The translations under genes and the position numbers were made by a program. Of a stretch of 37,503 bases of DNA, positions 7,161 through 34,130 are shown piece after piece. Below the pieces are notes generated by a model. It was given only the letters and a program-made list of their open reading frames with translations, made no database searches and was not told where the DNA came from. The DNA comes from a virus. Numbering within the stretch: position 1 is the first letter of the stretch; the number at the start of each line of letters is the position of its first letter. The stretch is from positions 1 through 37,503 of IMG/VR virus record IMGVR_UViG_3300037245_001110; one strand, 5' to 3'.

Positions 7161-7182
7161 TTGAAAACGTATACGAAGTAAT

Positions 7183-7476: not shown

Positions 7477-7691
7477 ACACACGTGAATCTCGCCCATCGA
7501 TCAAGGTAGATGACTTTATCGTGGCTATAGGTAAGAAAAAGTCTAATAGTGTATATCATATCTCAGAAGCGAGACACAAGATCAACGCAGGGTTTGTGAG
7601 GAATTCAATAGTGGCATACAAGACAGAGCTCTACATTGCATTGATGCGAAACAAGGATCAGCAATTAGTACCTGTGAAGTGGTATAAGTGA
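7446..7691 (+). CDS. Hypothetical small protein, 81 aa
   Basis: The ATG at 7446 lies within the end of the preceding gene, giving a 31-base overlap in a different frame; no later in-frame ATG exists near the N-terminus, so this start is the best available. The product is basic and beta-prone, beginning MQDNPRKLYIDTRESRPS, with VDDFIVAIGKKKSNSVYHIS in the middle and ending in VPVKWYK. The layout (short beta strands, C-terminal W-Y) recalls compact single-domain phage proteins, but I cannot name a family. Probably co-transcribed with 7183-7476. Confidence 0.6.
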   Translation: MQDNPRKLYIDTRESRPSIKVDDFIVAIGKKKSNSVYHISEARHKINAGFVRNSIVAYKTELYIALMRNKDQQLVPVKWYK

Positions 7692-7746
7692 TTGACATAA
7701 AAAAAAAGAGCAGCCGTATAAGGACTTTGATTCGTAAAATATTAAG

Positions 7747-8034
7747 ATGACAGCCAAAAGAAAACTAGAAAAAAATCCATTCCCCGTAAAATTCTACGAA
7801 GGGACTATTTTGGAATTGAGAAAAAGATCTATTTCAGAAGGCCGTAGTATTAATAACATTATTCGCAATGCTGTTGATAAAGAATCTGAGGCTATTATTC
7901 TCGATAAAGATCAAACGAAACTACTGCACGACTTGCTGTTTGACAAGATCACAACAACGGCAGTTGCTAGTGAGGAGTTTGCCGCTATTTGCGAGCTGCA
8001 AGTCAGGTTCAGAACCCCGTTGAGTTCGAAATAA
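7747..8034 (+). CDS. Ribbon-helix-helix (Arc/CopG-like) protein, 95 aa
   Basis: Residues about 11-45 have the layout of a ribbon-helix-helix DNA-binding domain: a beta strand (FPVKFYEG), helix 1 (TILELRKRSISEG) and, after the R-S-I-N turn, helix 2 (NNIIRNAVDKESE). The C-terminal 45 residues are helical and of unknown function. Such proteins usually act as dimers that repress or activate nearby promoters, so this is the best regulator candidate in the window. The TAA stop abuts the TAA stop of the convergent tape-measure gene with no gap and no terminator between them. Confidence 0.72.
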   Translation: MTAKRKLEKNPFPVKFYEGTILELRKRSISEGRSINNIIRNAVDKESEAIILDKDQTKLLHDLLFDKITTTAVASEEFAAICELQVRFRTPLSSK

Positions 8035-11855: not shown

Positions 11856-12404
11856 CTACGTCGTCACAGTATAATGCTTCGGTAATTCTAATTCGATACT
11901 TATATTTGAAACAGCCTTTTCGTTGTCAACTATTTCAGAGTCTCCATTGATAGTTACGAGCACCCAGTCTTCTGTTTTGTCAGTAGATCCTCCGACACGC
12001 AAGTAGACTCTCGGAGAGAGATATATATCTGACAAGACCTCCTTCTCCGCCTTAGAAACCAATGTGCTTTGAAGCGACATTAACTTCTTCGTGTCGTATC
12101 CAATATTTCGTTTATCACTTTGATTATCTCTTATGTTGAGCACGTTCTTATTGTATGACCCTATGAGTCTAGGATTATAGCGAGTCTTCCAAAGCTCGTT
12201 GAACATGTGAAATCTATAGCGTCCATATTGGTCAAGAAATTTAATATACATACTCTCAAGCACGCCGATTGAATTGCATGACCCCTTCGCAATCTTCGAC
12301 TTCACATTTGCCGTTGCTATCAATGTCGCTCCATCGTACAGGTTTATTGTTTCATTTGCCTGCGATGGTATCAGCTTATATCTATAATATCCGATGCTAC
12401 TCAT
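11856..12404 (-). CDS. Tail-region hypothetical protein, 182 aa
   Basis: A 182-residue protein whose start overlaps the end of the preceding gene by 8 bases. It opens with SSIGYYRYKLIPSQANETIN and has a Tyr/Phe/Arg-rich middle (FLDQYGRYRFHMFNELW) then a beta-rich C-terminus. It lies between a fibre-like gene and the baseplate gene. A role in the tail tip is likely from context, but no domain is recognised. Confidence 0.7.
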   Translation of the reverse strand: MSSIGYYRYKLIPSQANETINLYDGATLIATANVKSKIAKGSCNSIGVLESMYIKFLDQYGRYRFHMFNELWKTRYNPRLIGSYNKNVLNIRDNQSDKRNIGYDTKKLMSLQSTLVSKAEKEVLSDIYLSPRVYLRVGGSTDKTEDWVLVTINGDSEIVDNEKAVSNISIELELPKHYTVTT

Positions 12405-13368
12405 TTGTCATGTAGCTTAAATTGAACAGATAGTAAGTCACACCTACCACAGTCGCCGTATTGCACACGAAACCAAGCTCTCCAGCATTATTGACTTGAA
12501 TTGCCCCGTATATCACCGTCGTGTCTGGTAGCGGATGCCACACAGCGCTCGACATGTAAGCGAGCGAGCCATGGGGCAACCATTCGGTGAGATTGGCAAT
12601 GCGCCTAAATGCTGTCTGACTTGCAGATGAGCATTCCAGGGCGCCATGAATGATTATCATCTTTCCAGTCTTCCTGATGCTGATATTTAAGACTGATATA
12701 TTGATGTCCTGTAATGATGTGTTGAGAGTAAACGCCGGTCCTGGTCCATATGTCCCTAGGGAAATCTCAGTGACAGCATCCACGTACCCTTTTGTTGCGG
12801 GGTTGTTTGGCGTTGCTGGTGTGTATACCGCAGTGTTGCTTACACCCAAAACAGCCCCTGATCCAGGCTGGTACAATTCCGCTTTTGGTTCAAGTAAATC
12901 ATTTACCTGCCCTTGCGAGTACACGCTTAAGCTGATTCTCGAAGCAGCAGGATCAACATCAGATAAGTTCTTCTCTTTCTTAAGGAAGTTGAGACTATTG
13001 AAAAGCAACGATTTAACATCGCTCCAAGCGAAATTGATTGATGGAGTTCCAGCCTCTCCGAATGCCAGCCTTTTTGTGTCATTCGGTTCTGTTGTTGCTC
13101 CTAGTTCAAACAATCTGCGTCCTGTGATTATAGGTGTTGCAAGATCGTACTCAAGTACAAGCGTATGCGTTCCTGTTATCGGATTGTTGCAGTTTAACGT
13201 ACAATTGTTGTTGTCTATCATTTGAAAAATAGACGCAGTGCCTAGCTGTATTCCTGAGTCATCGTACCAAGTTGGCACAACAATAGCTTTTGCTAGATTG
13301 TGCTCAAATTCAAATTGGTATGATCCATTTAAATCAGCATCAGTGAATGTCTGTGTAATTATTGCCAT
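12397..13368 (-). CDS. Tail-fibre-like protein, 323 aa
   Basis: A 323-residue Gly/Asn/Thr-rich protein. The N-terminus (IITQTFTDADLNGSYQFEFE) is beta-prone; a helical linker at about 125-145 includes FLKKEKNLSDVDPAASR; and NPATKGYVDAVTE near residues 190-205 matches the 'ATKxYVD' motif frequent in tail fibres. The C-terminal 110 residues are beta-rich with a receptor-binding look. Host recognition is a reasonable inference. It is encoded inside the tail block, far from the separate beta-helix tail spike. Confidence 0.65.
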   Translation of the reverse strand: MAIITQTFTDADLNGSYQFEFEHNLAKAIVVPTWYDDSGIQLGTASIFQMIDNNNCTLNCNNPITGTHTLVLEYDLATPIITGRRLFELGATTEPNDTKRLAFGEAGTPSINFAWSDVKSLLFNSLNFLKKEKNLSDVDPAASRISLSVYSQGQVNDLLEPKAELYQPGSGAVLGVSNTAVYTPATPNNPATKGYVDAVTEISLGTYGPGPAFTLNTSLQDINISVLNISIRKTGKMIIIHGALECSSASQTAFRRIANLTEWLPHGSLAYMSSAVWHPLPDTTVIYGAIQVNNAGELGFVCNTATVVGVTYYLFNLSYMTNE

Positions 13369-13379
13369 TGTCTTATAGT

Positions 13380-13979
13380 TTAATTCCCTCTCAAAGTATA
13401 ATCATCATAATCTAAGAATGCCTCATCGTCATAATCAAAATAGTAATCATTTTCACCAATGGGTTCACCGATAGCTAGATTGCTTCCATCATTTGAGTTG
13501 TAGAAGTAGACATAGACGGGCTCACCAATTATTCCATAAAAACAAAGATTTTCATTATTATATATAGCCTCATTCGCTGAATAGTCTCCAAATTGCGAAG
13601 CTGAATGAATCGCAACAAATGAGGTTTCAACCTCAACAGCATCGATGTAGAATCTCAATGTAAACCCCTTGGTTATTCCATCGACGTAATCAAGAACATT
13701 CAATGACGACTCAAAGTCTTCAACATCTCCCATGAAAGAATCAAGCACATCGTTCGCTTTGAAAATATATGTGATAACGCTATTAGCTTCACTGTACTCA
13801 ATAGCTCTGAATGTTGCTAGCGAAACACTATCACTGTCTAGCACCTCAACATTGAGCTGATCTGGCTTGGTTAACGAGTATTCAACATCAACAATAAACA
13901 CAAGCGGGCTATGAATTGAAAGCAGGTCAACATTGTCCTGCTTATTATCTTGCGTTATGATTATTGAGTCTATTGACAT
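13380..13979 (-). CDS. Acidic tail-region protein, 199 aa
   Basis: A 199-residue protein, very rich in Asp, Glu, Ser and Tyr, ending in a notable acidic tail with EAFLDYDDYTLRGN. It starts 3 bases after the stop of the frame-broken small reading frame at 13983-14104. Composition and position among tail genes suggest a structural role. No family recognised. The acidic, Tyr-rich C-terminus could bind cations or a basic partner; that is inference. Confidence 0.7.
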   Translation of the reverse strand: MSIDSIIITQDNKQDNVDLLSIHSPLVFIVDVEYSLTKPDQLNVEVLDSDSVSLATFRAIEYSEANSVITYIFKANDVLDSFMGDVEDFESSLNVLDYVDGITKGFTLRFYIDAVEVETSFVAIHSASQFGDYSANEAIYNNENLCFYGIIGEPVYVYFYNSNDGSNLAIGEPIGENDYYFDYDDEAFLDYDDYTLRGN

Positions 13980-15081: not shown

Positions 15082-15645
15082 TTAATGCCCCTTAGGCATC
15101 CTGCTCTTAATTATATCATTCATAGCATCCTGATAGTCAGACACTTGCTTGCGGGCGTATAGCTCATTGAAGCAGTGATTGTAAGGCAGTGATCTTACAG
15201 CTTCATTTTTAGTCACGTCATTGCCAGTTAATTGCCTTATCTGCATATACACACCCAATGGGGCGAATCGATCCAATCCCGCACGCAGCTCATCAGGTGT
15301 TGGCTCGTGCTTAAGTGCCTCACTTTCTATATGATTGATACCCTCGATAGCATCTATCATGTAGCTAGTTGCTCGACAGAAGTCATCTATTTGCATTGCG
15401 AGCATTTGCAACCTGCTTGCGCTACAGCAAAGAATTGCATATTCAATTTTCTGCTCAAGCGTCAATCCTGATTGCAGGTCATGTTGCAGATCCTTTATCA
15501 AGCCAAATGGTTTGCACACAAAGTCACCCATCTGAAGAGTGTCTTCAGGATGAGTAAATATGTGCGCATATTTGATAGCAAAATTGTACTTACTTTTATC
15601 TATCAGTTCTAGATAGTCACTTGTTGATATTAGATCTAATTTCAA
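15082..15645 (-). CDS. Tail-block hypothetical helical protein, 187 aa
   Basis: A 187-residue, mostly helical protein with several Cys and Met residues (AILCCSASRLQMLAMQIDDF). Its start codon overlaps the stop of the Ala/Ser-repeat gene by 4 bases (ATGA arrangement), so the two are probably translationally coupled. In many siphoviruses small helical proteins ahead of the tape measure act as tail assembly chaperones; that role is possible here but no frameshift site or motif supports it. Confidence 0.68.
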   Translation of the reverse strand: MKLDLISTSDYLELIDKSKYNFAIKYAHIFTHPEDTLQMGDFVCKPFGLIKDLQHDLQSGLTLEQKIEYAILCCSASRLQMLAMQIDDFCRATSYMIDAIEGINHIESEALKHEPTPDELRAGLDRFAPLGVYMQIRQLTGNDVTKNEAVRSLPYNHCFNELYARKQVSDYQDAMNDIIKSRMPKGH

Positions 15646-16517
15646 TTGTACTTTGGTTTATTGTCTAAAAATACATTAAAGTCTTTAGTTTTGAAAAATT
15701 CTAGAAGTTTGGATACTTGAGCTGACCTTGCTGACTTTGCTGCTGACTCTGCTGACTCTGCTGCTGACTCTGCTGCTGACCATCTTGCTGACCATACTGC
15801 TAACCTTGCTGACTTTGCTGCTGACTCTGCTGCTGACTCTGCTGCTGACCATACTGCTAACCTTGCTGACTTTGCTGCTGACTCTACTGCTGACCTTGTT
15901 GACTTTGCTGACCATCTTGCTGACTTTGCTGCTGACTCTGCTGACTTTGCTGCTGACTCTGCTGCTGACTCTGCTGCTGACCATACTGTTGACCTTGCTG
16001 ACTTCGCTGCTGACTCTGCTGCTGACTTTGCTGCTGACTCTGCTGCTGACTTTGCTGACCATCCTGCTGACTCTGCTGCTGACTTTGCTGACCATCTTGC
16101 TGACTTTGCTGCTGACTCTGCTGCTGACCTTGCTGCTGACTCTGCTGCTGACCTTGCTGACCTTGCTGACCATGCTGACTCTATTGCTGCTGACCTTGCT
16201 GCTGACAAATCTTCTTGAGAACTATCTCCGTTCGCATACCGCTCGGCCACGTCGGTAGCGCTCTTACTTCTTTGATCTATATTATCATGCAACTTAAAAG
16301 ACTCCCTTGCACACCAGACAGCGAATAGTCTTAGGCTTCTGTCACACATAAATTGCCTTCTACATAGCAGCCATATCACATCCTCTTTAGACTCGACTTT
16401 ATTGGCAAAAGCCTCGATAAACTCACTCGGGGTAAGATCCAAGTCCTCTGTGAATCCAATATACGAAGGATCGTAACATGGATCTAGCGCTCTAATCATG
16501 CTTGATGTTATTTTCAT
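15642..16517 (-). CDS. Ala/Ser tandem-repeat protein, 291 aa
   Basis: Residues 1-104 form a conserved-looking domain with ALDPCYDPSYIGF, LFAVWCARESFKL and DVAERYANGDSSQEDLSAAR. Then about 165 residues consist of SAAE, SAAK and SARW units, an almost pure Ala/Ser helix, followed by a non-repetitive 23-residue tail. The N-terminal motifs and Ala-rich extension resemble a family of phage and bacterial proteins with degenerate AAWAAAR-like repeats, some annotated as putative immunity proteins; the function is unknown. It is the first gene behind the promoter at 16545-16575 and begins the tail operon. Codons TCA GCA recur almost unchanged, which points to recent repeat expansion. Confidence 0.75.
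   Translation of the reverse strand: MKITSSMIRALDPCYDPSYIGFTEDLDLTPSEFIEAFANKVESKEDVIWLLCRRQFMCDRSLRLFAVWCARESFKLHDNIDQRSKSATDVAERYANGDSSQEDLSAARSAAIESAWSARSARSAAESAARSAAESAAKSARWSAKSAAESAGWSAKSAAESAAKSAAESAAKSARSTVWSAAESAAESAAKSAESAAKSARWSAKSTRSAVESAAKSARLAVWSAAESAAESAAKSARLAVWSARWSAAESAAESAESAAKSARSAQVSKLLEFFKTKDFNVFLDNKPKYN
15716..16206 (-). repeat. Tandem 9/12-base coding repeat
   Basis: About 490 bases made of TCAGCAGCAGAG, TCAGCAGCAAAG and TCAGCAAGA units on the minus strand (read as TGCTGACTCTGC on the plus strand). Units are 12 or 9 bases, so the frame is always kept. Because units lack stop codons in several frames, long spurious reading frames appear on both strands here. Unit identity is very high, consistent with slippage or unequal recombination. 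Confidence 0.9.
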
Positions 16518-16544: not shown

Positions 16545-16575
16545 GCAATATATAACATTTTACTTAATTATGCAA
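16545..16575 (-). promoter_or_regulatory. Promoter for the tail operon (extended phage motif)
   Basis: On the minus strand TTG (16575-16573) starts the motif TTGCATAATTAAG, followed after exactly 20 bases by TATATTGC (16552-16545). The predicted start lies near 16538, about 20 bases before the ATG at 16517. The -7 box differs from the host TAnnTTTG consensus at its last two bases. Confidence 0.7.
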
Positions 16576-18892: not shown

Positions 18893-19165
18893 CAACACTT
18901 TATTATGAAAAACAACACTTTATTTTTACCGACAACACTTTATTATAATAAGTGTTGCGGTCTAATTAGTTGCACAGTAAGAGTTTATGTATTAACGCAA
19001 CACTTTACTGTATTTTTCCTCGTAGCGTATAAGTGTTAAGAACTTTTCAAGTTATATTATAATACTAATAAGGCTGTTGGTGTCGATAAAGTGTTGCGGT
19101 CTAATCAACTGAGTGCTAGCGTGATTACTAAAAAAGGGCGCAACACTTATATAAATAAAGTGTTG
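18893..19165. repeat. Iteron-like array in a 460-base gene-free region
   Basis: The gap from 18779 to 19240 has no gene. It holds nine copies of CAACACTTTATT or close variants: forward at 18893, 18913, 18933, 18998 and 19141, and inverted at 18947, 19030, 19085 and 19154. Copies 18933/18947 and 19141/19154 form two dyads, each 25 bases long. A 17-base perfect direct repeat (AAGTGTTGCGGTCTAAT) occurs at 18950 and 19089. The region sits where leftward late genes and rightward small genes diverge. An origin of replication with iterons, or an operator array for a phage repressor, are the two natural readings; I cannot decide between them. Confidence 0.85.
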
Positions 19166-19189: not shown

Positions 19190-19220
19190 TTGCATAATTA
19201 AGTAAGTTTTTGTATGTTTG
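19190..19220 (+). promoter_or_regulatory. Rightward promoter (extended phage motif)
   Basis: TTG at 19190-19192 begins TTGCATAATTAAG, and TATGTTTG lies at 19213-19220 after exactly 20 bases. The ATG of the first rightward gene is at 19241. The 19141-19165 dyad ends 24 bases upstream of the TTG, a position where a bound protein could repress or activate. Confidence 0.78.
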
Positions 19221-21198: not shown

Positions 21199-21456
21199 AT
21201 GAATAAATTTAATTTAGGCGAAGAAGCAAAAGACAAGATCACTGGATTTAAAGGCATTTTGACAGGGTACATGAAATGCTTAACAGGTTGTGACCAATAC
21301 TGTATCCAGCCAAAATGTGAAGGGGTTCTGGCTGATAAATTACCCGAGGCTAACTGGATTGATGAAGGCAGGGTAGAGTTGATTGAAGGGATAGGTGTGG
21401 AACCAGGAAAAGTGGCAAGCAAGTCTGGAAGAGGCTCATGCTGCCCTGCTCCGTGA
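21199..21456 (+). CDS. Phage protein of the 'xDxITGFxGI' family, 85 aa
   Basis: I choose the ATG at 21199 over one at 21166 because the conserved text begins right after it: MNKFNLGEEAKDKITGFKGI, then LTGCDQYCIQPK and WIDEGRVELIEG. This layout (a strand ending in KDxITGFxGI, a 'GCxQYxIQP' strand and a 'xDExRxE' strand) is common in small phage proteins with a compact SH3-like beta barrel and no assigned function. The C-terminus adds a Ser/Gly/Cys/Pro-rich tail (SGRGSCCPAP). A short relative lacking the second half is at 23845-23961. It is the last gene of the rightward array. Confidence 0.65.
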   Translation: MNKFNLGEEAKDKITGFKGILTGYMKCLTGCDQYCIQPKCEGVLADKLPEANWIDEGRVELIEGIGVEPGKVASKSGRGSCCPAP

Positions 21457-23844: not shown

Positions 23845-23961
23845 TTACTTTATTGGTGCAGAGTGGTCAGCCCCATTCTTTTTCGCTGCAACATCCTTCT
23901 TGTCGATACCACTAAATCCAGTGATCTTGTCTTTTGCTTCTACTTTTAATTTTAATTCCAT
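23845..23961 (-). CDS. Small protein with 'KDKITGF' motif, 38 aa
   Basis: A 38-codon reading frame in a 160-base gap between the annealase and SSB genes. It begins MELKLKVEAKDKITGFSGI; the AKDKITGF text is identical to that of the protein at 21199-21456 (AKDKITGFKGI), but the rest of that domain is missing and is replaced by a Lys/Ala-rich tail. It may be a shortened member of the family or a remnant; translation is likely because the leader is A/T-rich and operon packing is tight. Confidence 0.6.
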   Translation of the reverse strand: MELKLKVEAKDKITGFSGIDKKDVAAKKNGADHSAPIK

Positions 23962-24617: not shown

Positions 24618-24905
24618 TTAATTTAAATAGTTAAGCATCAAAATGTCTAGTAATTCAAAGTCCTTCATAGGCTCACCAGTCGATTGCTCTATACTGATAG
24701 ATAATGAGTTGAATATCAAATTATCTAGATATATATCAGTATACTTATAATCACCACCTTCAATCGCTTCAGTGTCAGTAATAATGAGATTGCCGTCTTG
24801 CCATAGCTCCAGTAGGACTATGATTACACTGTATTTCTTAACTCCGAGCGCAGTCTTGCACTTGTCAAAGAGTGATCTGTTTATTTTTTTTTGTGTTTTT
24901 CTCAT
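24618..24905 (-). CDS. Hypothetical protein, first gene of recombination operon, 95 aa
   Basis: A 95-residue protein, beginning with a basic helix (MRKTQKKINRSLFDKCKTAL) and then acidic alpha/beta sequence ending FELLDILMLNYLN. The ATG is 4 bases after a phage-type -7 element, an unusually short leader, so a downstream start or a leaderless message should be considered. As the first gene of the recombination operon it could be regulatory, but no domain is recognised. Confidence 0.65.
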   Translation of the reverse strand: MRKTQKKINRSLFDKCKTALGVKKYSVIIVLLELWQDGNLIITDTEAIEGGDYKYTDIYLDNLIFNSLSISIEQSTGEPMKDFELLDILMLNYLN

Positions 24906-24908
24906 GAT

Positions 24909-24939
24909 GCAATGTACAAAACTTTACTTAATTATGCAA
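24909..24939 (-). promoter_or_regulatory. Promoter for recombination operon (extended phage motif)
   Basis: On the minus strand TTG (24939-24937), part of TTTGCATAATTAAG, then after exactly 20 bases TACATTGC (24916-24909). It lies immediately after the two-hairpin terminator element and immediately before the ATG at 24905, so the mRNA would be essentially leaderless if the box position is right. Confidence 0.7.
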
Positions 24940-24962
24940 ATGATTCGTAATATTAATTCCGT

Positions 24963-25024
24963 TACCCAGAAATCCCCGCTACTTTCGTAGCGAGGTAACC
25001 TCAAGGATACCAAAAATTGGGGTT
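24963..25024 (-). terminator. Two-hairpin element closing cassette 1
   Basis: On the minus strand AACCCCAA and TTGAGGTT form a first stem; CCTCGCTAC-GAAA-GTAGCGGGG forms a second stem with a GNRA-type loop, followed by ATTTCTGGGTA. Blocks TACCCAGAAA, CCCCGCTAC, GGTAACCTCAAG and TTGGGGTT (plus strand) are shared with the element at 32425-32487. It follows the stop codon of the cassette 1 gene by 15 bases and most likely terminates it. Confidence 0.7.
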
Positions 25025-25039
25025 AATTTCTTTTGATAA

Positions 25040-25339
25040 TTACTCAGCATTTTTAAAGTAAACACTATGGCATTCATCGTTAATAATCACATGGTGATAT
25101 TCTTCTAGTTCATTGTGAAATCTATGACAGTCAGTGGCGTGTAGTTCTAGCATTGGAATTTTACCCTCTTCAATTGCCAAAATAAAGCCATCTGAATAAA
25201 TTGCATTATCTGTGTCGAATTCTGATGAATAAACAGCACCGTGACCATGCTCATCGGTTAAAACATCTAAAATAACACCGTCTAAATCAATGTTACCATT
25301 CATAAATTGAGTGCTTTTGTTTCTTGTATTTAAATACAT
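25040..25339 (-). CDS. Cassette 1 accessory protein, 99 aa
   Basis: A 99-residue, acidic, His-rich protein (nine His; ELHATDCHRFHNELEEYHHV), mostly beta in the first half. It is the only gene in a unit bounded by the 129-base repeat upstream and the two-hairpin terminator downstream, with its own promoter. The ATG lies 3 bases after the repeat ends, so the leader is identical to that of cassette 2. Small proteins in such independently expressed slots are often anti-defence or host-takeover factors; I see no motif that identifies this one. Confidence 0.72.
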   Translation of the reverse strand: MYLNTRNKSTQFMNGNIDLDGVILDVLTDEHGHGAVYSSEFDTDNAIYSDGFILAIEEGKIPMLELHATDCHRFHNELEEYHHVIINDECHSVYFKNAE

Positions 25340-25373
25340 ATCTGATAGTTTTAATTACTGAATTGCTATAAGA

Positions 25374-25405
25374 CAAATATACAACCCTCTGCTTAATTAT
25401 GCAAA
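25374..25405 (-). promoter_or_regulatory. Cassette 1 promoter
   Basis: TTTGCATAATTAAG from 25405, spacer of exactly 20 after TTG, and TATATTTG at 25381-25374, a perfect Bacteroidota -7 box. Transcription should start near 25367, giving a leader of about 28 bases. Confidence 0.85.
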
Positions 25406-25415
25406 TAAAACACAT

Positions 25416-25451
25416 AAAAAAAGCAAAATAATTTCACTTTATTTTGCTTTT
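25416..25451 (-). terminator. Terminator of the primase gene (in repeat copy 1)
   Basis: AAAAGCAAAATAA pairs perfectly with TTATTTTGCTTTT over a 7-base loop, and the minus strand continues with three more T (seven in all), the normal form of an intrinsic terminator. It starts 30 bases after the stop codon of the primase-helicase gene. Confidence 0.85.
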
Positions 25452-25480
25452 CTTTGAGTGTTAGTTAGTTACGCAAATAT

Positions 25481-27877
25481 TTAACGATAATCCTCAAAAA
25501 GCGTTGAATTAACTTTCTCTTCAGACTTCTTGACCGAGCTACTATCTACACTCAACCACTTAACACCCTGTGTATTACCCTCATTGTATTCAGAACCAAT
25601 AAACTTCGCATAAGCTTGACACCATCCGTTGAATCTTCGCTGTGAAATCTTAAATTTTCCCGTCGCATAATCTGGATACTCTTCAGTGAAAGACGTCATT
25701 AACTTACTTCTTGTATGTCTTGTGTTTGATGCTATAGCAACATCTTTCGCAATAACCCACTCATAAAATTCTGAGCAGGTTTCTTTAATAAATTTGCGTG
25801 CTGCTAAATTCTTGAAGCTCGAAGCTATTAGACCGTCTTTTAAGTAGAATTGCAAGCATGATATCATGAACGAATAGAACCTCATCCACTCCCTTGAATC
25901 CCATGACGTAAAGAATTCTCCATCATACTCATCGTAAGGCGAGTGCTTGTCTGAGAAGAAGTCTGAGAACTCGAGCTCATGCTTTCGCCTGTCAAATGAT
26001 CCACCAATTCCGCCGATTGTGTAGTTTGTTGTAATTACAATTTTCGGTGCTAATTCAAACGGAATAAATACTGCATCCTTATTTTTTTTCTCAATCTCTA
26101 ATCCTTCGGTGACAACTGGGAATAGATTTTCAAAATCGAAATTTCTTTTCACGTCATCAAATTGCAATATCTGAGTATCCAAAGAAACTTTTTGAAAGCA
26201 GAACGTTTTCTCCAACGAGAATCTCTTGCCGTCCTCAATCGAAACTCTTCTCAAATGACCAAGAGCTTTGCAAAATAACCCCTTGCCGCTGCCCCCGTTC
26301 GGCTTATCTGATATAGTTTCATCGTTAAGTATGACAGCCTTGTTGTTCTTCGAGCTCTTGTGCGAGTGCAGCAAGAATCCTATGGTTGATCTAATAGAAT
26401 CGTACCTGCTACTGTCGTCTCCTGACAGCTTCATGATAAAGTCTTCGTATACTGACTTCTTTTTGTCAGAATCGATATGATCGTGCTGTATGATCTGATT
26501 CTCCCAGATAAAACCCTCAAGATCAATGTAATCTATTTTTTTTATGTCATTGGATGTTACTTTTATAGCATGATTTTTGAAATATAAAAATGCATCACTC
26601 TTTGAATCTCTCTTAAATTTCACGTCCTTGCTGGAAATCATTGAGAGGAAGTCTTCTTTAAAGTACTTAGTACTTTCTGCCATAAAGTTAAATGGCTGCT
26701 TACCCATATCGGAAAGCCTGTCTCTCAGATAACTCAAGACATAGTCTCTTATCTTAGATGTGCTAACATTCTGAATAATGTTAGACTCCTTGATCTTTAT
26801 AAGAGTGTGATTGCCGATCACGCTTGGATAATACTTGCTATACCCTTCTTCTTCTAAGAATAACTTATAGTCATAGTGAGATAACTTCAACCCACCTCTT
26901 GATCCGTATTCCCAGAAAGTTTCTGTCGTTATGCTTTTTCTGACTTTTTGAATTTCTTTGTCGTCTGCACCTGTCTCATCTCTTATTTCTTCACGTGTTT
27001 TCCCATTTTTGATCCCCGTTGATATAGCATCTTTCTTTCGTGAATCTTCAAAACTCTTAGTTCCATGATCGCTTGCTTTCTTGTATGCAGATCGAACCGT
27101 ATTCTCGATTTCCGAGACTGGGAAACTGTCATTTGCAAAGCTTCTTAAAGAGCTTTCGCAAGTGGTCTGAGCTACACCGTAGGTGTTGAATGCCGCTGCG
27201 AGCTTAAAGAGATTGTCGTTTCGCTCTCCCTTAATCATTGTGTAATTCTTTGCAAACCAAGTATTTAATCTTTCGATTATTTCATACTCTGAAGTTAGCG
27301 GAATGGCTGCATTCATTGTCCCGATTTCCTCAATTTCCTCAACTGGCAACTCCTCCCACAACACCGAATCTTTGTTAATGTATATGTCCTCATCACAAGA
27401 CTCATAACACACTCGCGACACGTCACTCGTTGACTTGTCGAAGTGTTTTGAGGCATAGTATTTTTGCAGCGTTTCGAAGTATTTTTTGTGAAAATCTACC
27501 ATTGGAGGGATCTTCACAAGGACTTTCAGTCCATTTCCTGAGGGTGACAGGAACACGGAGAATGAATATGCGTCCTTCGTCAAGGTTGATCTATACTCAC
27601 TTAACTTATCCTCATCTTCAAACCCATCAAAATCGATACAGATTAATCCAGAATGCTCGATCAATCCCTTGATAGCTCTCTTCTTGAATGTACCTGAAAA
27701 GCAAATTGAAGGGAGTGACATCTTGCTTTTGTCTCTTATTTTTTTATCTTTTTCATTTCGTATTATCTCGATTAACTCCCTGGAGTGACACCGCTTAATC
27801 CTATCAAGAACAAAGTCGATGTCTCTATGAAATGCCTGCTCGGTCGTGGAAATGTCTTTAAAAATGGTTACTTGCAT
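25481..27877 (-). CDS. Primase-helicase (BT4734/VirE-like N-terminus, SF3-type ATPase), 798 aa
   Basis: Probably starts phage DNA replication. Residues about 45-170 resemble the BT4734/VirE N-terminal domain of Bacteroidota mobile elements (GLICIDFDGFED with metal-binding Asp residues, SPSGNGLKVLVKI, SDVSRVCYESCDEDIYIN). Residues about 205-280 look like a PriCT-type helical segment (RNDNLFKLAAAFNTYGV). The C-terminal part (about 480-700) is an SF3/DUF5906-like helicase: Walker A PNGGSGKGLF near 526, Walker B LQFDDVKR, and KIVITTNYTIGGIGG as sensor segment. The gene ends at the terminator in repeat copy 1. It begins after a 120-base gap with no clear promoter. Confidence 0.85.
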   Translation of the reverse strand: MQVTIFKDISTTEQAFHRDIDFVLDRIKRCHSRELIEIIRNEKDKKIRDKSKMSLPSICFSGTFKKRAIKGLIEHSGLICIDFDGFEDEDKLSEYRSTLTKDAYSFSVFLSPSGNGLKVLVKIPPMVDFHKKYFETLQKYYASKHFDKSTSDVSRVCYESCDEDIYINKDSVLWEELPVEEIEEIGTMNAAIPLTSEYEIIERLNTWFAKNYTMIKGERNDNLFKLAAAFNTYGVAQTTCESSLRSFANDSFPVSEIENTVRSAYKKASDHGTKSFEDSRKKDAISTGIKNGKTREEIRDETGADDKEIQKVRKSITTETFWEYGSRGGLKLSHYDYKLFLEEEGYSKYYPSVIGNHTLIKIKESNIIQNVSTSKIRDYVLSYLRDRLSDMGKQPFNFMAESTKYFKEDFLSMISSKDVKFKRDSKSDAFLYFKNHAIKVTSNDIKKIDYIDLEGFIWENQIIQHDHIDSDKKKSVYEDFIMKLSGDDSSRYDSIRSTIGFLLHSHKSSKNNKAVILNDETISDKPNGGSGKGLFCKALGHLRRVSIEDGKRFSLEKTFCFQKVSLDTQILQFDDVKRNFDFENLFPVVTEGLEIEKKNKDAVFIPFELAPKIVITTNYTIGGIGGSFDRRKHELEFSDFFSDKHSPYDEYDGEFFTSWDSREWMRFYSFMISCLQFYLKDGLIASSFKNLAARKFIKETCSEFYEWVIAKDVAIASNTRHTRSKLMTSFTEEYPDYATGKFKISQRRFNGWCQAYAKFIGSEYNEGNTQGVKWLSVDSSSVKKSEEKVNSTLFEDYR

Positions 27878-27997
27878 AGATTTCTTTTTTTTGCATTGTC
27901 TTTTTAAAAAGAAAGGGAGGGCGGAAAAAGATTAAAACCGCTTTTCACTTAAGTAATGAGCTGAAGTTATCCCTAGGAGTAAATGTAGTGAAAAAAT

Positions 27998-29725
27998 CTA
28001 ATTTATTACCTCAATTTTCATTCTACTCATAGTCACATGCACCCATCCGTGCGAATGTCCTTTATACTTAGCATACTCAGATAGCGCCTGTCGCGAATAT
28101 CTTGCTTTGAAATACCTCTCCATTGCCTGGATGTCAGAATAGGTTAAGATATTAACGAGAGCTTCGCGTTTTTTGAACTCCGCAACTTTCATCACAACCT
28201 TATTGATTAACAGTCTATTGATAATCCATCCAATTTTATACCCATTTGCTTTCGAAAATCGCTCCATCTCATCGAATGACATTTGGCTTACAGGTTTGAC
28301 GGCTCTGAATTTACCGTTGTCATCCTGTGACATTGGCGACAATTTTGCTTTCTCAAGCTCTTTCTCAACCCTGAATATATAACCGCATTCAGGACATATT
28401 TTCACAGATGCGAGGATATATTCATCACATCCGAGTTTTTTATTCTTGTCTGGAGTCCCACTCTCACCACATTCTTTGATGGGTGGCACTCCCGACCCTG
28501 CACCTGAGCTGTGATGCAAGGCCCATAATCTAGGCATTTTATACCCGCCCAATCTCTCTGCGTTTAATCCGAAGTCGAGAATATTAAAATGCGTCTTGTC
28601 AATACTTTTGCACGGCCTCGAACCGCGACCGAGCATTTGCAAGTATAGCACCTCTGAGATCGTTGCACGGAATAATACGATTGTTTCGATAGCAGGAAAA
28701 TCAAAGCCCGTTGTCAATATGCCTGCGTTTACGAGAACGGGAAACTCACCAGATTTCCAGCGTTTAATCAAGTCATTTCGTTCCCCTGAGTACATCGCCA
28801 TTGAGTTCTTGTACTCGTTATAGTAGTCAAGTTTCTCGTAGTATTTGATCCACTCAGGAGCTGCGCTTGCTCTATCTTCAGACTCGTAGCTCTCAGGTCG
28901 CTTAGGTGCTGCCATGCTGGAGCACACGAATTTTGCTTTAATCCCATTGGAGCAAAACTCTTTCGCAGTACGAACGGAATGTATGATGTTGGTGCAAAAA
29001 ACTAATGTCGTGGTGTTCGGGACATGCTCACGCCATTCATCGATAACACCACCATAAAGCTTCGGAGTGTCGTATTTCTTAAACATGTCACTTTCGGAAT
29101 AGTCGCCTTTAGAATTCTTCTTAACACCCTTCATATCGGGCGAATCTTTGAATCCACAATACATTTCTGGCATCAAGAAACCTAATTCGATAAGCTCCTT
29201 GGTTGTCAATGTATGAACGATCTCGTCGTAGTCTTCTGCGAGCTGCCTTTGTTTTCCGCCGCGCTTTGGGGTTGCGGAAAATCCGATTATAGTTTTGCCT
29301 TTGAAAATCCCAGCTTCAAAAAAAGCATTAAACTCTTGCTTGTGACATTCGTCGATTATAACAAGGTCGATAGAGTCTAGGAATTCAGACCACTTAGGCT
29401 TGCTCAGTCTATTTTTTAATGTCTGAGCCATCGCGACGAAAGTCTGCCCGCTGTCAGGTGGGTGCGTCCGTCCTGCCTGAATATATTGCGGACGACTTCC
29501 GAACTGCTCTAACGTACCACCAGTGCCACGCAGTAACTCCTCGCGATCCGTGAGTATGAGAATCTTAGAACCTTTCGCTTCTGCTCGTGATACGATGTAA
29601 GAGAAGACTACCGTCTTCCCTCCACCCGTTGGCATCTCCATGATGACACTTTTCCTCTTTGATCTCCTTAAGGCGTCAACGGTGTCGTTAACTCCTTGTT
29701 GTTGATAGGGTCTGAGTGTTATCAT
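27998..29725 (-). CDS. Superfamily 2 DEAD/DEAH-type helicase, 575 aa
   Basis: RPYQQQGV at the N-terminus (Q-like motif), Walker A EMPTGGGKT at 30-38, motif II DECH at 125-128, motif III SATP at 150-153, and motif VI LQMLGRGSRP (about 365-375). A C-terminal Cys cluster (CGESGT, GCDEY, CPECGYIF) can form a zinc finger. The layout fits the type III restriction-like/RadD/UvsW group of helicases, which remodel branched DNA in recombination-dependent replication; no nuclease or methylase domain is attached. It overlaps the upstream small gene by 4 bases. Confidence 0.88.
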   Translation of the reverse strand: MITLRPYQQQGVNDTVDALRRSKRKSVIMEMPTGGGKTVVFSYIVSRAEAKGSKILILTDREELLRGTGGTLEQFGSRPQYIQAGRTHPPDSGQTFVAMAQTLKNRLSKPKWSEFLDSIDLVIIDECHKQEFNAFFEAGIFKGKTIIGFSATPKRGGKQRQLAEDYDEIVHTLTTKELIELGFLMPEMYCGFKDSPDMKGVKKNSKGDYSESDMFKKYDTPKLYGGVIDEWREHVPNTTTLVFCTNIIHSVRTAKEFCSNGIKAKFVCSSMAAPKRPESYESEDRASAAPEWIKYYEKLDYYNEYKNSMAMYSGERNDLIKRWKSGEFPVLVNAGILTTGFDFPAIETIVLFRATISEVLYLQMLGRGSRPCKSIDKTHFNILDFGLNAERLGGYKMPRLWALHHSSGAGSGVPPIKECGESGTPDKNKKLGCDEYILASVKICPECGYIFRVEKELEKAKLSPMSQDDNGKFRAVKPVSQMSFDEMERFSKANGYKIGWIINRLLINKVVMKVAEFKKREALVNILTYSDIQAMERYFKARYSRQALSEYAKYKGHSHGWVHVTMSRMKIEVIN

Positions 29726-29988
29726 TTAGAGTTAAGCTTCTTTAATAACATCTTGCAAAGATCCTCATTGCTCGTATGGTGATTGCACCACACAAAATCG
29801 CACAATTTTTCTTTTGTAATGTATTTTTCAGACTGTTTCGGGTCAAGAACTTCGTAGCCTCTGTCCTTAACTTCTTCGAGTAGATCACTATCGTCGATAG
29901 CTTCAAGAATGTCGCTAAGGTAGTCATCAACATCTATAGTAGTATCTACATCCACGGTAGCTTCTACGCATATGTGTATCTTTGCCAT
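29722..29988 (-). CDS. Acidic small protein, 88 aa
   Basis: I choose the ATG at 29988, which follows an A-rich leader (AAAAAAAGAGAT), over one 36 bases upstream. The product starts MAKIHICVEATVDVDTTIDV, with alternating Val and Asp that form acidic strands, followed by acidic helices and a C-terminal helix with two Cys (LCDFVWCNHH). It lies between the SMC-like ATPase and the helicase and overlaps the latter by 4 bases, so it may be an accessory of either. The acidity suggests DNA mimicry as one option, untested. Confidence 0.65.
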   Translation of the reverse strand: MAKIHICVEATVDVDTTIDVDDYLSDILEAIDDSDLLEEVKDRGYEVLDPKQSEKYITKEKLCDFVWCNHHTSNEDLCKMLLKKLNSK

Positions 29989-30036
29989 ATCTCTTTTTTT
30001 TAACAGCGCACAACTCAAAGTCATGCGCCATTTGGT

Positions 30037-31776
30037 TTAATTAAAAAATACTTCGCCACCTTCAATCAACAACTCATTCTCTGCAAGATTTTCTCTCTTG
30101 AAATCTCCTGTTATCGAGGTTAAGATCGTGAGGTCATTTTCCTCTGCTATCTTCGCAATTATAGCATATGACTTTTTGTCCATCGGCACATCGTCAAGGA
30201 AGATGTAGTTAAGTGCCTTTGCTTTCAGCTTTAATCTCGCAACTTGCAGTAAGATGCCGATTATAGGCTTCTGTGTAGACGAGTATGAAACTAAAAGACG
30301 CTCATCACCCTCATTGTGAAAGTATTCAGGATCGAACGCACCGGTATACACTGTTTTGATGTCCATCTTTCCATCTTCGGAATAAAATGGTTTCATATAT
30401 AACCCCTCAACACCTGTATCTATTTGAGAATAGAGTTTTGCAAGTTCTTTTCTCTTAATCTCAACCTCTGCGCACGCCCTAACCCAGTCTCTATTGATTT
30501 CATACCGATTAATCATGCTGTTATTGTGCTTAGCAATCTCAATCTGCTTTTCAACATTTTCGATTTTCAAATCTGATTCCTTGGTATCAACAGGCTTGTT
30601 CTCAACTGCCGTATACTCCTTCATTATAGTATCGCGCTTTTGAAGTAATTCTTTGAAATCTGGGTGATAATCAACACCCTCAACACGTAGTATTCTGCCA
30701 TTTTCGATATGAGGACAAAGTGGTTTGATAGGCTCTTTTTGTGGTGGATACTTCTCTGAAAGCGCTGTCGTCAATCCGTCAACGAATGTGTTCAGATCTC
30801 TTTTGAGTCCAAAGATCTGACCCTGAGTAGTATCATAATTAATAAATGATAGTGATCTAAGATTCTTTATAATATCGGCAATCACTATTTTTTCGAGATT
30901 ATAACCATCGCTAAGCTTCTTGTTCGCAAAAGAAAGCTCATTATAATCACTCATCAGTCTGTCCGAAATTTTCCTACACTCCTCAACAACAACAGCACCT
31001 TTTTTAATCACCTCTGACTTTTTATTCGCAAACTCAGCTTCAGCATCACCAGCGGCTTGCCCCTTCGAAACAAGGAGGGAATTTCTTTCTTGCTCCAACT
31101 TATCAACATCAGTAGACTTCATTTCTGAAAGTTGTTCTAACTTGTACCCATCTCTTTCAAAATCGGTGACATAAGCACCTTCATGCTGACATTGATTTCG
31201 CAAAGAGTCGCGCTCTTCAGTTAGCTGATCCAACTCTCCTAGGATAGATTTTTCATAGCCGATGTGTTTTTTATCGAAAATCACACCCAGTTTCGCAAGC
31301 TCGTCACGGAATAGTGCGAACATGAATTTTCTATGCACGGTTTCGTTCTCTGACAGAAAGTCTTTTGACCCAAATGTCATTGCATTTGCAATCAAATCCA
31401 TAAACGCGACAGGAGTCGCCTTCACCCCGTCTATTATCGGATTCATCACCTTTTTTCCATTCAGATCCTTTTCGAACAATTTAAATGTAGGGCTGTTCCC
31501 TTTCGTTTTTTTTGCTTCGATAAACACCTTCTTGTCTCCGTCCAGCAATTGCACCTCACTATCCCACTCGTCACCATACTGCTCTGCGTCTGCTAGCGAT
31601 CCGCGACCCTGCACCGTAGTTTTTACAGCTTTCTGCATTGTAGACTTGCCTTCACCAGATTTTCCCTTAATAGCGATTATGCCACTTTTAAACTTTTCAA
31701 AGTCAAACTCTAGCGCTTTGAAGATTCCGAAATTCGTTGCCCGGAATGAAATAATTTTTACTTTTTTTTGTTTCAT
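30037..31776 (-). CDS. SMC/SbcC-like ATPase, 579 aa
   Basis: Walker A GKSGEGKST lies at 38-46 in an N-terminal half-domain that starts KIISFRATNFGIFKALEF, the typical RecF/SbcC opening. A central coiled coil (about 165-460) carries Cys-containing CPHIENG near 353, perhaps a reduced zinc-hook. The C-terminal half-domain has a signature-like ERLLVSYSSTQKP and Walker B NYIFLDDVPM (about 523-532), then a D-loop-like segment. SbcC homologues work with an SbcD nuclease; none is visible next to it. It likely handles DNA ends or branches together with the downstream helicase. Confidence 0.82.
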   Translation of the reverse strand: MKQKKVKIISFRATNFGIFKALEFDFEKFKSGIIAIKGKSGEGKSTMQKAVKTTVQGRGSLADAEQYGDEWDSEVQLLDGDKKVFIEAKKTKGNSPTFKLFEKDLNGKKVMNPIIDGVKATPVAFMDLIANAMTFGSKDFLSENETVHRKFMFALFRDELAKLGVIFDKKHIGYEKSILGELDQLTEERDSLRNQCQHEGAYVTDFERDGYKLEQLSEMKSTDVDKLEQERNSLLVSKGQAAGDAEAEFANKKSEVIKKGAVVVEECRKISDRLMSDYNELSFANKKLSDGYNLEKIVIADIIKNLRSLSFINYDTTQGQIFGLKRDLNTFVDGLTTALSEKYPPQKEPIKPLCPHIENGRILRVEGVDYHPDFKELLQKRDTIMKEYTAVENKPVDTKESDLKIENVEKQIEIAKHNNSMINRYEINRDWVRACAEVEIKRKELAKLYSQIDTGVEGLYMKPFYSEDGKMDIKTVYTGAFDPEYFHNEGDERLLVSYSSTQKPIIGILLQVARLKLKAKALNYIFLDDVPMDKKSYAIIAKIAEENDLTILTSITGDFKRENLAENELLIEGGEVFFN

Positions 31777-31788
31777 CTTTTATATTTG

Positions 31789-31968
31789 TTAACGTGAATT
31801 TTGCTTTAAATTAATCAAATCACAAGCCGCTTTCGCAGTCGTTTCGATTGCGAAGACTTTAACTTTCTTGCTTTCGATCGTGAGGAATGACAGGACGCCA
31901 TTATTTCTGAGCTCTACTATATAACCATTTGCTGCGGTTATGTAGTTTTCCGTGAAGGTTGCTTTCAT
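31789..31968 (-). CDS. Hypothetical small protein, 59 aa
   Basis: A 59-residue protein, MKATFTENYITAANGYIVEL at the start, beta-prone then helical (AIETTAKAACDLINLK). Its ATG overlaps the stop of the ACP-like gene by 4 bases, and it ends 12 bases before the SMC-like gene; both spacings support it as a real gene. No family recognised. Confidence 0.6.
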   Translation of the reverse strand: MKATFTENYITAANGYIVELRNNGVLSFLTIESKKVKVFAIETTAKAACDLINLKQNSR

Positions 31969-32216
31969 CTAATGTGCCTTTCAAGGTAATCGATCATCCC
32001 TCCAACAGTCTCTTGCTTGTAGACATCGTTATCTGGAAAGCTAGATTCAAAGTCATACTCTAGCAAGCTAATCAATACAACTGCTTTCGAAGGAGTGAAG
32101 TTTAGTTCTTTAAAAGTCGTGTCCTCATTAATGCTAATCCTTACGTCTAGATCCATTGACCTCAGAGCCTCTGTTATTACTTCCAATATGCGTGAGCGTG
32201 TTTGTTTTTCTGTCAT
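31965..32216 (-). CDS. Acyl-carrier-protein-like protein, 83 aa
   Basis: The length (83), acidic charge and helix pattern match acyl carrier proteins: helix 1 RSRILEVITEALRSM, then EDTTFKELNF, helix 2 KAVVLISLLEYDFESSFPD, and QETVGGMIDYLERHI, the last equivalent to the ACP ending 'xTVGDxxxYIxxH'. The 'LGxDSL' phosphopantetheine site is replaced by LNFTPS: Pro42 stands where the modified Ser should be and Ser43 follows. So the protein probably keeps the ACP fold without the prosthetic group, perhaps as a decoy or protein-binding module. It overlaps the downstream small gene by 4 bases. Confidence 0.65.
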   Translation of the reverse strand: MTEKQTRSRILEVITEALRSMDLDVRISINEDTTFKELNFTPSKAVVLISLLEYDFESSFPDNDVYKQETVGGMIDYLERHIR

Positions 32217-32251
32217 GGTTTCGATAGTTTCGTTTTAAAATTAAGTTGTCA

Positions 32252-32395
32252 TTACGTTTCGCAGGATCCCCAATGTCCATACTGGCAATCTTTTGGTATG
32301 TATAGGCATGTCGAGCAAAACGATCCGTCAAAATCAAATTCTCCACACTCAGGACATTCTATTGGTAGGTCATCGTCTTCGTCGTAAGGTTCCAT
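32252..32395 (-). CDS. Small zinc-ribbon protein, 47 aa
   Basis: A 47-residue acidic protein, MEPYDEDDDLPIECPECGEF, with CPEC at 14-17 and CSTC at 27-30, plus Cys37 and Cys45: a compact zinc ribbon. It begins 30 bases after the closing element of cassette 2 and precedes the ACP-like gene by 35 bases. No clear promoter is seen. Zinc-ribbon peptides of this size in phages often modulate transcription or translation; not proven here. Confidence 0.65.
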   Translation of the reverse strand: MEPYDEDDDLPIECPECGEFDFDGSFCSTCLYIPKDCQYGHWGSCET

Positions 32396-32424
32396 GATTT
32401 CGATATTTTTTAGTTGATATTTTT

Positions 32425-32487
32425 TACCCAGAAAACCCCGCTACAACATTGCAGCGGGGTAACCTCAAGACTATCAAGCTTGGGGTT
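32425..32487 (-). terminator. Two-hairpin element closing cassette 2
   Basis: Shares four sequence blocks with 24963-25024. On the minus strand AACCCCAA/TTGAGGTT (one mismatch) is followed by a GC-rich stem CCCCGCT...AGCGGGG, then TTTTCTGGGTA. It begins 2 bases after the stop codon of 32490-32762. The stems are kept while several stem bases differ from copy 1, as expected when structure is under selection. Confidence 0.72.
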
Positions 32488-32489
32488 GA

Positions 32490-32762
32490 TTATGCATCTT
32501 GCATAAGTCCGTAGGTGTATTTTATTTTGCATATCGAGAACGTGCCGTACTTTTCGTGCCACAATCTTAGCTCCTCATAAAGCTCTTCGCTAAAAAAGTC
32601 TAGGTTGTTTTTTATTTTATTTAGTGTATATTTTAAATTGACTCCTTTTTTAGAGTCAAACACTATGAGCGTGTCAACCATTCCGTAATTTGTTGCACCC
32701 ATTTTTATGATTGCTTTCTTTGTCTCTCTGCCTAGATCTTCGCTTATTTTCTTATTTTGCAT
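32490..32762 (-). CDS. Cassette 2 accessory protein B, 90 aa
   Basis: A 90-residue basic helical protein: KKISEDLGRETKKAIIKMGA, then NYGMVDTLIVFDSKKG and LKYTLNKIKNNLDFFSEELY. It is the second gene of cassette 2, 22 bases behind the first, and ends 2 bases before the closing two-hairpin element. It is not similar to the cassette 1 protein. Function unknown; the cassette setting suggests an accessory role such as host or defence interaction. Confidence 0.68.
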   Translation of the reverse strand: MQNKKISEDLGRETKKAIIKMGATNYGMVDTLIVFDSKKGVNLKYTLNKIKNNLDFFSEELYEELRLWHEKYGTFSICKIKYTYGLMQDA

Positions 32763-32784
32763 AGTCTTAATTTTTATGATTATT

Positions 32785-33186
32785 TTATTTTACCATTTCG
32801 ATTGCATCGAAGCCGTACTTTGTGCACAAAACCATATTTTGTTTTGTGTTTTTCATTCTAAATCCATAACCTGAATCTATGATAGAACAATCGAACTTGC
32901 TTGCTTCAAATTCACGCTCTATTTTTTTCTTCTCAGTTTTTACTGTAGTTGTGTCACATTGTATTACAATATTCCTGTTATTTTTTACACCAAACTTCGC
33001 GGCGAGATCGTCAGATATGCAAACTCTATCATTTTCAGGGTGTAAGAATATTTCATATGTATTATCTTCGATTGTACATGTTATTTTTTCTTTAGAGCAT
33101 CCCGTTTCTGCGTCTATCCAGATTTCAGCTGTTACTTTGTGACTTCCTTTTTTTGTTGTTGCGGTTGTTTTAATTTTACTTTTCAT
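32785..33186 (-). CDS. Cassette 2 accessory protein A, 133 aa
   Basis: A 133-residue, Lys- and Thr-rich protein with mixed strands: KIKTTATTKKGSHKVTAEIW, SKEKITCTIEDNTYEIFLHP, a middle with NIVIQCDTTTVKTEKKK and an end GYGFRMKNTKQNMVLCTKYG. It has six Cys but no CxxC pairs. The ATG lies 3 bases after the 129-base repeat, so its leader is the same as in cassette 1. No family recognised. Confidence 0.7.
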   Translation of the reverse strand: MKSKIKTTATTKKGSHKVTAEIWIDAETGCSKEKITCTIEDNTYEIFLHPENDRVCISDDLAAKFGVKNNRNIVIQCDTTTVKTEKKKIEREFEASKFDCSIIDSGYGFRMKNTKQNMVLCTKYGFDAIEMVK

Positions 33187-33220
33187 AATTGATAGTTTTA
33201 ATTACTGAATTGCTATAAGA

Positions 33221-33252
33221 CAAATATACAACGTTCTGCTTAATTATGCAAA
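33221..33252 (-). promoter_or_regulatory. Cassette 2 promoter
   Basis: TTTGCATAATTAAG from 33252, an exact 20-base spacer after TTG, and TATATTTG at 33228-33221. Identical to the cassette 1 promoter apart from two spacer bases. Confidence 0.85.
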
Positions 33253-33262
33253 TAAAACACAT

Positions 33263-33298
33263 AAAAAAAGCAAAATAATTTCACTTTATTTTGCTTTT
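33263..33298 (-). terminator. Terminator of the lysis operon (in repeat copy 2)
   Basis: The same perfect 13-base stem, 7-base loop and seven-T tail as at 25416-25451. It lies 14 bases after the stop codon at 33312 and would end the whole late transcript. Confidence 0.85.
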
Positions 33299-33311
33299 CT
33301 TTGAGTGTTAG

Positions 33312-33506
33312 TTAGTTATATCTTTTTTTCTGGGCCTGCTTCTTTCTTCTTTTTTCGAAGAAGTTATTAAAAACCCCGTCGCCCCTCTGTTTTATCTTGC
33401 GAATTTCAATATTTTCGTTATTTATAACTTCAGGCTTGTCAAGGAGGTGGTGGTACATGAGCAGGCCGCACACAAAGCCAACGATGGCACTTGTTGCGTA
33501 CCACAT
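33312..33506 (-). CDS. Small single-membrane-span protein, lysis block, 64 aa
   Basis: I use the ATG at 33506, in a TGATG overlap with the holin stop; a GTG one codon upstream is possible. One membrane segment (about 4-20, ATSAIVGFVCGLLMYHH) is followed by a hydrophilic, strongly basic C-terminal part ending in KRRKKQAQKK. It is the last gene of the lysis block. A spanin-like or second-holin role is possible, but it is short for a spanin and lacks a lipobox partner. Confidence 0.62.
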   Translation of the reverse strand: MWYATSAIVGFVCGLLMYHHLLDKPEVINNENIEIRKIKQRGDGVFNNFFEKRRKKQAQKKRYN

Positions 33507-33727
33507 CACTTATCCTGCTTGTTTGCTCCGATAAGCGCAATGATACTTGCAATAGATGTTCCTATTGCTAATATAGCAGTCTCTGAACCCTTTATTATTT
33601 CTGCGAGCTCTGGATTCTTAGGAGCAACAAACATGACCGCAACGGTGATAAGCATTGTCACTATAGCACCAACGATGCCACGTTTCGTTGTTTTAGGTGA
33701 TTCTTTCGCGTTTTTTCTTAATTTCAT
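33506..33727 (-). CDS. Probable holin, 73 aa
   Basis: A 73-residue protein with a basic N-terminus (KLRKNAKESPKTTKRG), membrane segment 1 (about 18-35, IVGAIVTMLITVAVMFVA), a short polar loop with PKNPELAEIIKG, and membrane segment 2 (about 50-67, AILAIGTSIASIIALIGA). Two-span small proteins next to an endolysin are class II-type holins that open the inner membrane. The amidase gene is 22 bases upstream. Confidence 0.78.
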   Translation of the reverse strand: MKLRKNAKESPKTTKRGIVGAIVTMLITVAVMFVAPKNPELAEIIKGSETAILAIGTSIASIIALIGANKQDK

Positions 33728-33749
33728 AGGTTTCTTTTTTTTTATTAGA

Positions 33750-34130
33750 TTACAAATTATATTCTTTACAAAATTCTTTTACATTAAAATTGGGACAAGT
33801 TTTTTTACTAAACTCATAGTGCCCGTGAATAGTTGCACCAGGGTCGATAGTTGTCATATGTGCTAATAAAGCAACAAGGGTCGCCGTCTGCTTCTCATTG
33901 AACTTATCTCTACCGATTAGACATATTCCTATATTGTCTCTATTAAGGCCTCTTACATGAGCTCCCATTTCATTCTCCAGCCTACCTATATTCAAAGATC
34001 CATCTATATGTATAACATAGTGATAACCAACCTTCTTGAACCCTCTCGCAATGTGCCAGATATTAATGTCATCAACTGTGTAGTTGTGACCGTTAGGTGT
34101 GTCTGAGCAGTGAATAGTTATTTTTTTCAT
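33750..34130 (-). CDS. N-acetylmuramoyl-L-alanine amidase (endolysin), 126 aa
   Basis: Amidase_2/T7-lysozyme type. Zinc ligands are readable by comparison with T7 lysozyme: His7 in ITIHCSDT, His104 in GHYEFSKKTC and Cys112; Lys110 fits the catalytic Lys two residues before the Cys. The core GYHYVIHIDGSLNIGR (35-50) and HVRGLNRDNIGICLIG (58-73) are typical. It cuts the amide bond between MurNAc and L-Ala to lyse the host. At 126 residues it is a bare catalytic domain with no wall-binding module and no signal peptide, so it relies on the holin. Confidence 0.92.
   Translation of the reverse strand: MKKITIHCSDTPNGHNYTVDDINIWHIARGFKKVGYHYVIHIDGSLNIGRLENEMGAHVRGLNRDNIGICLIGRDKFNEKQTATLVALLAHMTTIDPGATIHGHYEFSKKTCPNFNVKEFCKEYNL

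Follow-up and report, generated by a model that had tools for sequence, protein, structure and literature searches.

Why two almost identical noncoding segments of 129 bases stand in front of genes that do not resemble each other is the question raised by this locus. A preliminary description of the same DNA regarded the two places as insulated plug-in slots for accessory genes. Here the layout of the units, the transcription that they would support and the competing explanations are considered together.

Genome and host group

The window, i.e. the whole stretch analysed, is a single metagenomic virus record (IMGVR_UViG_3300037245_001110) of 37,503 bases. A minus-strand open reading frame starting at position 457 stays open across the record ends and meets its stop at 37424. 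The ends join in frame, and the record is therefore probably a complete, circularly permuted genome. The recognisable genes encode a portal, a terminase, a head protease, an amidase, a Rad52/Erf-type annealase (the Rad52-type enzyme named in the preliminary description is indeed there), SSB, a helicase and a BT4734-like primase-helicase. The terminase and portal of this 37.5-kb genome match Bacteroidota phages: the closest terminase relative is at 52%, the Flavobacterium psychrophilum phages are at 48%, and the primase is at 44% to that of a spring-water podovirus. No close relative of the phage was found in the collections searched. The virus is predicted to infect Bacteroidota bacteria, as its proteins resemble those of Bacteroidota phages.

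Several other repeats are present in the window. The gene at 15642-16517 contains a long imperfect tandem repeat (15670-16218) with 9- and 12-base steps. An inverted repeat of 52 bases (21206-21257 and 23906-23957, 83% complementary, 2.6 kb apart) flanks the SSB/exonuclease region, and another, near-palindromic itself (18933-18959 and 19139-19165), lies between the terminase genes and the plus-strand genes.

Structure of the control unit

The two units (Table 1) have the same orientation and agree at 127 of 129 positions (98%, far beyond chance), as first reported, and this identity falls off abruptly on either side. The longest exact run common to both copies is 84 bases, and the two mismatches are at adjacent sites. 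A repeat search over the window, the pair of closing elements aside, returned no further dispersed noncoding repeat of this kind.

Table 1. Coordinates of the features discussed, given as positions in the window.
Feature	Positions	Strand	Remarks
Control unit, copy 1	25343..25471	-	127/129 with copy 2; three-frame stop TAACTAACTAA, hairpin terminator, promoter, leader
Control unit, copy 2	33190..33318	-	Junction of lysis/late genes and replication operon
Promoter of unit 1	25374..25404	-	TTG at -33, TATATTTG at -7, extended box TTGCATAATTAAG
Promoter of unit 2	33221..33251	-	Probably drives whole operon 33186-25481
Third promoter	24909..24939	-	Same box (TTGCATAATTAAG...TACATTG); ahead of 95-aa gene and recombination genes
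Fourth promoter	16545..16575	-	Same box; upstream of late (structural) operon
Fifth promoter	19190..19220	+	Same box; before plus-strand gene set
99-aa protein	25040..25339	-	Acidic, net charge -14; without known relatives; behind unit 1
133-aa protein	32785..33186	-	Without known relatives; first gene behind unit 2
90-aa protein	32490..32762	-	Without significant family match; second gene behind unit 2
Closing element 1	24960..25028	-	Two hairpins, tail AUUUCU; between 99-aa gene and next promoter (24939)
Closing element 2	32422..32491	-	Two hairpins, tail UUUUCU; after 90-aa gene, before replication operon
Replication operon	25481..32395	-	Between closing element 2 and unit 1

Read along the minus strand, each unit consists of TAACTAACTAA, a hairpin rich in A/T and followed by a T tail, the promoter (TTTGCATAATTAAG...TATATTTG) and a leader of ~30 bases, with an ATG located 3 bases past the leader end. 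This order of terminator, promoter and leader, already noted in the preliminary description, holds for both copies. The hairpin comprises 16 pairs and has a folding energy z of -4.1. Both copies are noncoding overall, as had been claimed, except that copy 2 supplies the last bases and the stop codon (the second TAA of TAACTAACTAA) of the 65-aa gene at 33312-33509. The three-frame stop is suggestive and is given little weight, because 16 such clusters occur in the window.

The promoter of the unit is formed by TTTG and, at the Bacteroidota spacing, TATATTTG. The -33/-7 consensus of the Bacteroidota housekeeping sigma factor is TTTG/TAnnTTTG (PMC6847099); a sigma-70-type scan of the region gave no excess. 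The box TTGCATAATTAAG is found at a constant distance from the -7 element in five promoters of the genome (n=5), and all five share one ungapped core, TTGCATAATTAAGnA-N5-TTnTA. Since the -33/-7 elements fit the Bacteroidota consensus, we prefer "host-type promoter with a phage-specific box" to the original "phage promoter". In the case of the 95-aa gene (24893-24948), the -7 element is only a few bases ahead of the ATG (TACATTGCATCATG), and thus its mRNA may be nearly leaderless.

Genes and closing elements behind the units

The 99-, 133- and 90-aa proteins align with one another no better than shuffled sequences do, and the view that the genes behind the two copies are unrelated is thus upheld. 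Searches with both the 99- and the 133-aa protein found no relatives, while the 90-aa protein was compared with family libraries only; a plasmid search gave no match. The GC content of these genes is 0.33-0.34 versus 0.36-0.44 for most others, but their codon score is not unusual, and the same low GC is seen in the 95-aa gene, which belongs to neither cassette. Single-sequence folds of the 99- and 133-aa proteins were unusable (pLDDT 35 and 45, respectively). No match to the genes behind the units was obtained in Pfam or in PADLOC, which covers defence and not anti-defence proteins, and the PHROG matches were at chance level. The anti-defence or host-takeover role put forward for these genes therefore has no positive evidence from the sequence comparisons.

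A related two-hairpin element had been described as closing each cassette. The pair is real, being 78% identical over about 69 bases, and is weaker than was implied: the longest exact run is 12 bases, and the tails, AUUUCUGGG and UUUUCUGGG, are poor U-tails. The second hairpin is conserved, with pair changes on one side only. Hence the "identical flanks" of the preliminary description are found on the upstream side (127/129) and not downstream, where the closing elements are only 78% alike. A 16-mer scan of IMG/VR for the closing element returned 11 chance matches without the structure, a comparison with Rfam gave no match, and a covariance model of the element retrieved its two copies only. 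Two candidates for a hidden promoter in the closing elements (TAGTCTTG and TATCCTTG) were dropped, as both violate the -7 consensus. Closing element 2 probably acts within an operon, as a partial terminator or a processing site, and does not mark its end.

Probable transcription map

The replication operon comprises genes for a 47-aa Zn ribbon, proteins of 83 and 59 aa, an SMC/AAA_23-like ATPase, a 100-aa protein, a ResIII-type helicase and the BT4734-like primase-helicase. Between the units (minus strand, 33180 to 25475, about 7.7 kb) there is no TAnnTTTG, against a Markov expectation of 2.7; zero is reached in about 5% of simulated sequences. Likewise, no promoter is present in the ~40 bases between the hairpin of closing element 2 and the 47-aa gene. 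Because no TAnnTTTG promoter separates the units, unit 2 probably starts the whole operon and unit 1 probably ends it. With no promoter inside, the operon would be read from unit 2 through closing element 2, a poor terminator, barring an unknown promoter type.

The claim that each cassette is insulated on both sides and expressed alone is accordingly only half sustained. The 99-aa gene has its own promoter, with a weakly tailed closing element behind it, and agrees well with the picture of a single unit, whereas copy 2 is followed by a replication operon that lacks a promoter of its own. Of the two arrangements, only that of the 99-aa gene has the look of an independent unit. The simplest map is that of a late operon stopping at unit 2 (which it is able to reach, as the map is probably circular), a replication operon spanning unit 2 to unit 1, and then the 99-aa gene.

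Explanations of the repeated unit

We consider it probable that the 129-base unit is duplicated transcription punctuation of a sort common in phages, a stop-and-restart placed at both ends of the replication operon. Each copy would stop the transcript of the preceding gene at the A/T-rich hairpin with its T tail, and the Bacteroidota-type promoter with its phage-specific box would restart transcription at once, so that both downstream mRNAs would begin with one common short leader. The late operon, running through the circular junction, most likely stops at copy 2, where the replication operon, with the 133- and 90-aa genes in front, most likely begins; copy 1 would end the replication operon and start the lone 99-aa gene. 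The near identity of the copies may mean that one place recently received the unit from the other by duplication or conversion, for which the core common to all five promoters could have supplied homology. At 98% identity the unit pair is of later origin than the closing pair, at 78%, which argues against duplication of the whole cassette in one recent event. Three observations run counter to the punctuation reading. In each location the repeat fills almost exactly the space between a stop and a start codon; simple duplication does not require such borders, which fit a change of genes behind a constant unit. The related closing elements fit cassettes, and promoter types outside the scan could drive the replication operon.

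The same borders, together with the unrelated genes behind near-identical units, are the main points in favour of plug-in accessory slots, in which a constant unit and a closing element would frame small takeover or anti-defence genes exchanged with other phages by means of the annealase. The phage has a Rad52/Erf-type annealase, both closing elements are related, the 99- and 133-aa proteins are orphans, and the lower GC behind the units is, like the borders, suggestive of exchange. However, no second genome with the unit was found. The preliminary description had proposed nucleotide searches for the unit and the closing element elsewhere, and these gave no genuine copy: nothing beyond chance was obtained for the unit in annotated phages or in six distant relatives, for 31- and 25-mers of its terminator in IMG/VR, or for a 22-mer of its promoter end and leader in GTDB contigs. 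These scans used BLAST or exact sub-patterns for the unit, so diverged copies of it could be missed. Downstream of a supposed slot the homology is weak (at most 12 identical bases, in closing elements 78% alike), and if the two copies recombined with each other, the primase-helicase operon would be lost, which makes a swap within the genome implausible. Moreover, copy 2 seems not to be isolated from the operon behind it, no defence-related match was obtained, and the near-identical Fpv sister phages examined have the same gene lists around their repeat units, with no sign of swapping. A plug-in slot is thus possible and, in our judgement, unlikely; the evidence at hand does not require gene exchange.

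The position of the repeats, in the same orientation and exactly at both operon ends, would also be expected if they were the borders of a 7.8-kb replication module that moves or is exchanged between phages as one piece. No other phage with such borders was found, and the placement of the primase in other gene orders in relatives is compatible with this explanation and not specific to it; we regard it as quite unlikely. An assembly artefact comes to mind for a single metagenomic record with repeats of ~130 bases, a size that would be near short-read length. This is highly improbable, as the longest exact shared run is 84 bases, the two differing sites are adjacent, intact genes flank both copies and the contig ends join in frame.

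Comparison with known systems

A close parallel to the punctuation reading is provided by the PeSLs (promoter early stem-loops) of T4-like phages (Arbiol 2010; Comeau 2014, both via PMC4503421). PeSLs are, like the present unit, composites of a terminator hairpin and a promoter in one intergenic space, repeated before unrelated small genes; they are proposed to serve homologous shuffling, and true PeSL regions are said to have a high copy density. In the window, a hairpin terminator is directly followed by a promoter in one repeated intergenic unit, as in PeSLs so described. In contrast to them, the promoter is of the host sigma-ABfr type (TTTG/TAnnTTTG) and not a T4-type early promoter, the genome is that of a small Bacteroidota phage (37.5 kb) and not of a T4-like one, and there are only two near-identical whole units and five promoter cores, not many copies in a hypervariable region. 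We therefore file the locus as a duplicated terminator-promoter-leader unit, PeSL-like in working and outside the PeSL definition.

PeSL-like motifs are also present in halovirus HGTV-1 (PMC3950731). In halovirus HF2, according to PMC8707807, intergenic repeats act as early-middle promoters, and one of them drives an 18-kb transcript covering the replication polymerase gene, which resembles the role proposed here for unit 2. The HF2 repeats differ in being 58 and 29 bases long, in carrying archaeal promoters and in being described there as promoters, not as terminator-promoter composites. The SAS/ESAS repeats of cluster K mycobacteriophages (PMC3203893) are dispersed and located a few bases before start codons. 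Like the unit, they precede various genes outside the structural part of the genome and can contain the stop codon of the preceding gene, but they consist of a 13-base translation-site motif and inverted repeats, exist in many copies and form no terminator-promoter unit. Lambdoid morons (PMC1524935) are small ORFs with their own promoter and terminator and a different base composition. The 99-aa gene may fit this pattern; unlike in morons, which are single insertions, the phage has its control unit twice, and an operon seems to start with the 133- and 90-aa genes. Against these parallels, we read the system as unusual only in the length and near-identity of its unit.

Similar repeats in other Bacteroidota phages

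Same-strand repeats were sought in ten other Bacteroidota phage records, and at least four of the ten have promoter-leader or terminator-promoter repeats scattered ahead of different genes. Flavobacterium phage Fpv11 has five promoter repeats (three of them preceded by a terminator), Elizabethkingia phage TCUEAP1 has eight promoter-leader repeats, and Bacteroides phage BF1-3 and Parabacteroides phage PM682P3 have several such repeats each. The likeness to the window is in a Bacteroidota-type promoter and leader, in some cases with a terminator, repeated before different genes; the pairs are shorter or less alike than here (about 37-113 bases, 74-92%). Since other Bacteroidota phages carry such repeats, the window appears as an extreme case, longer and more alike, of something common. 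In each of the four phages, the segment between -33 and -7 contains a conserved box peculiar to that phage.

One could go further and suppose that Bacteroidota phages have a mobile control unit resembling PeSLs, a complete stop-terminator-promoter-leader block copied between loci by recombination, beneath which different orphan genes or the whole replication module would be exchanged. We hold this to be unlikely. If such units are copied around the genomes of Bacteroidota phages, they would serve as a ready-made guide to transcription units and might open a way of exchanging genes in these phages, which abound in the gut and the sea but for which few transcription data exist. With the phage-own boxes between -33 and -7, phage regulons and possible regulator sites could be located easily. 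In PM682P3 (26700-26800 and 33745-33850), the box lying between -33 and -7 takes the form of an inverted repeat (GGCGGTCTGAAATGGCCGCC), likely an operator. The early/replication region of MW202828.1 (about 43745-55154; piece positions 2009-13418) contains ~14 copies of a perfect 16-base palindrome, GTGTCGTTAACGACAC. The first 42 kb have none; several copies are found shortly before start codons, others within genes.
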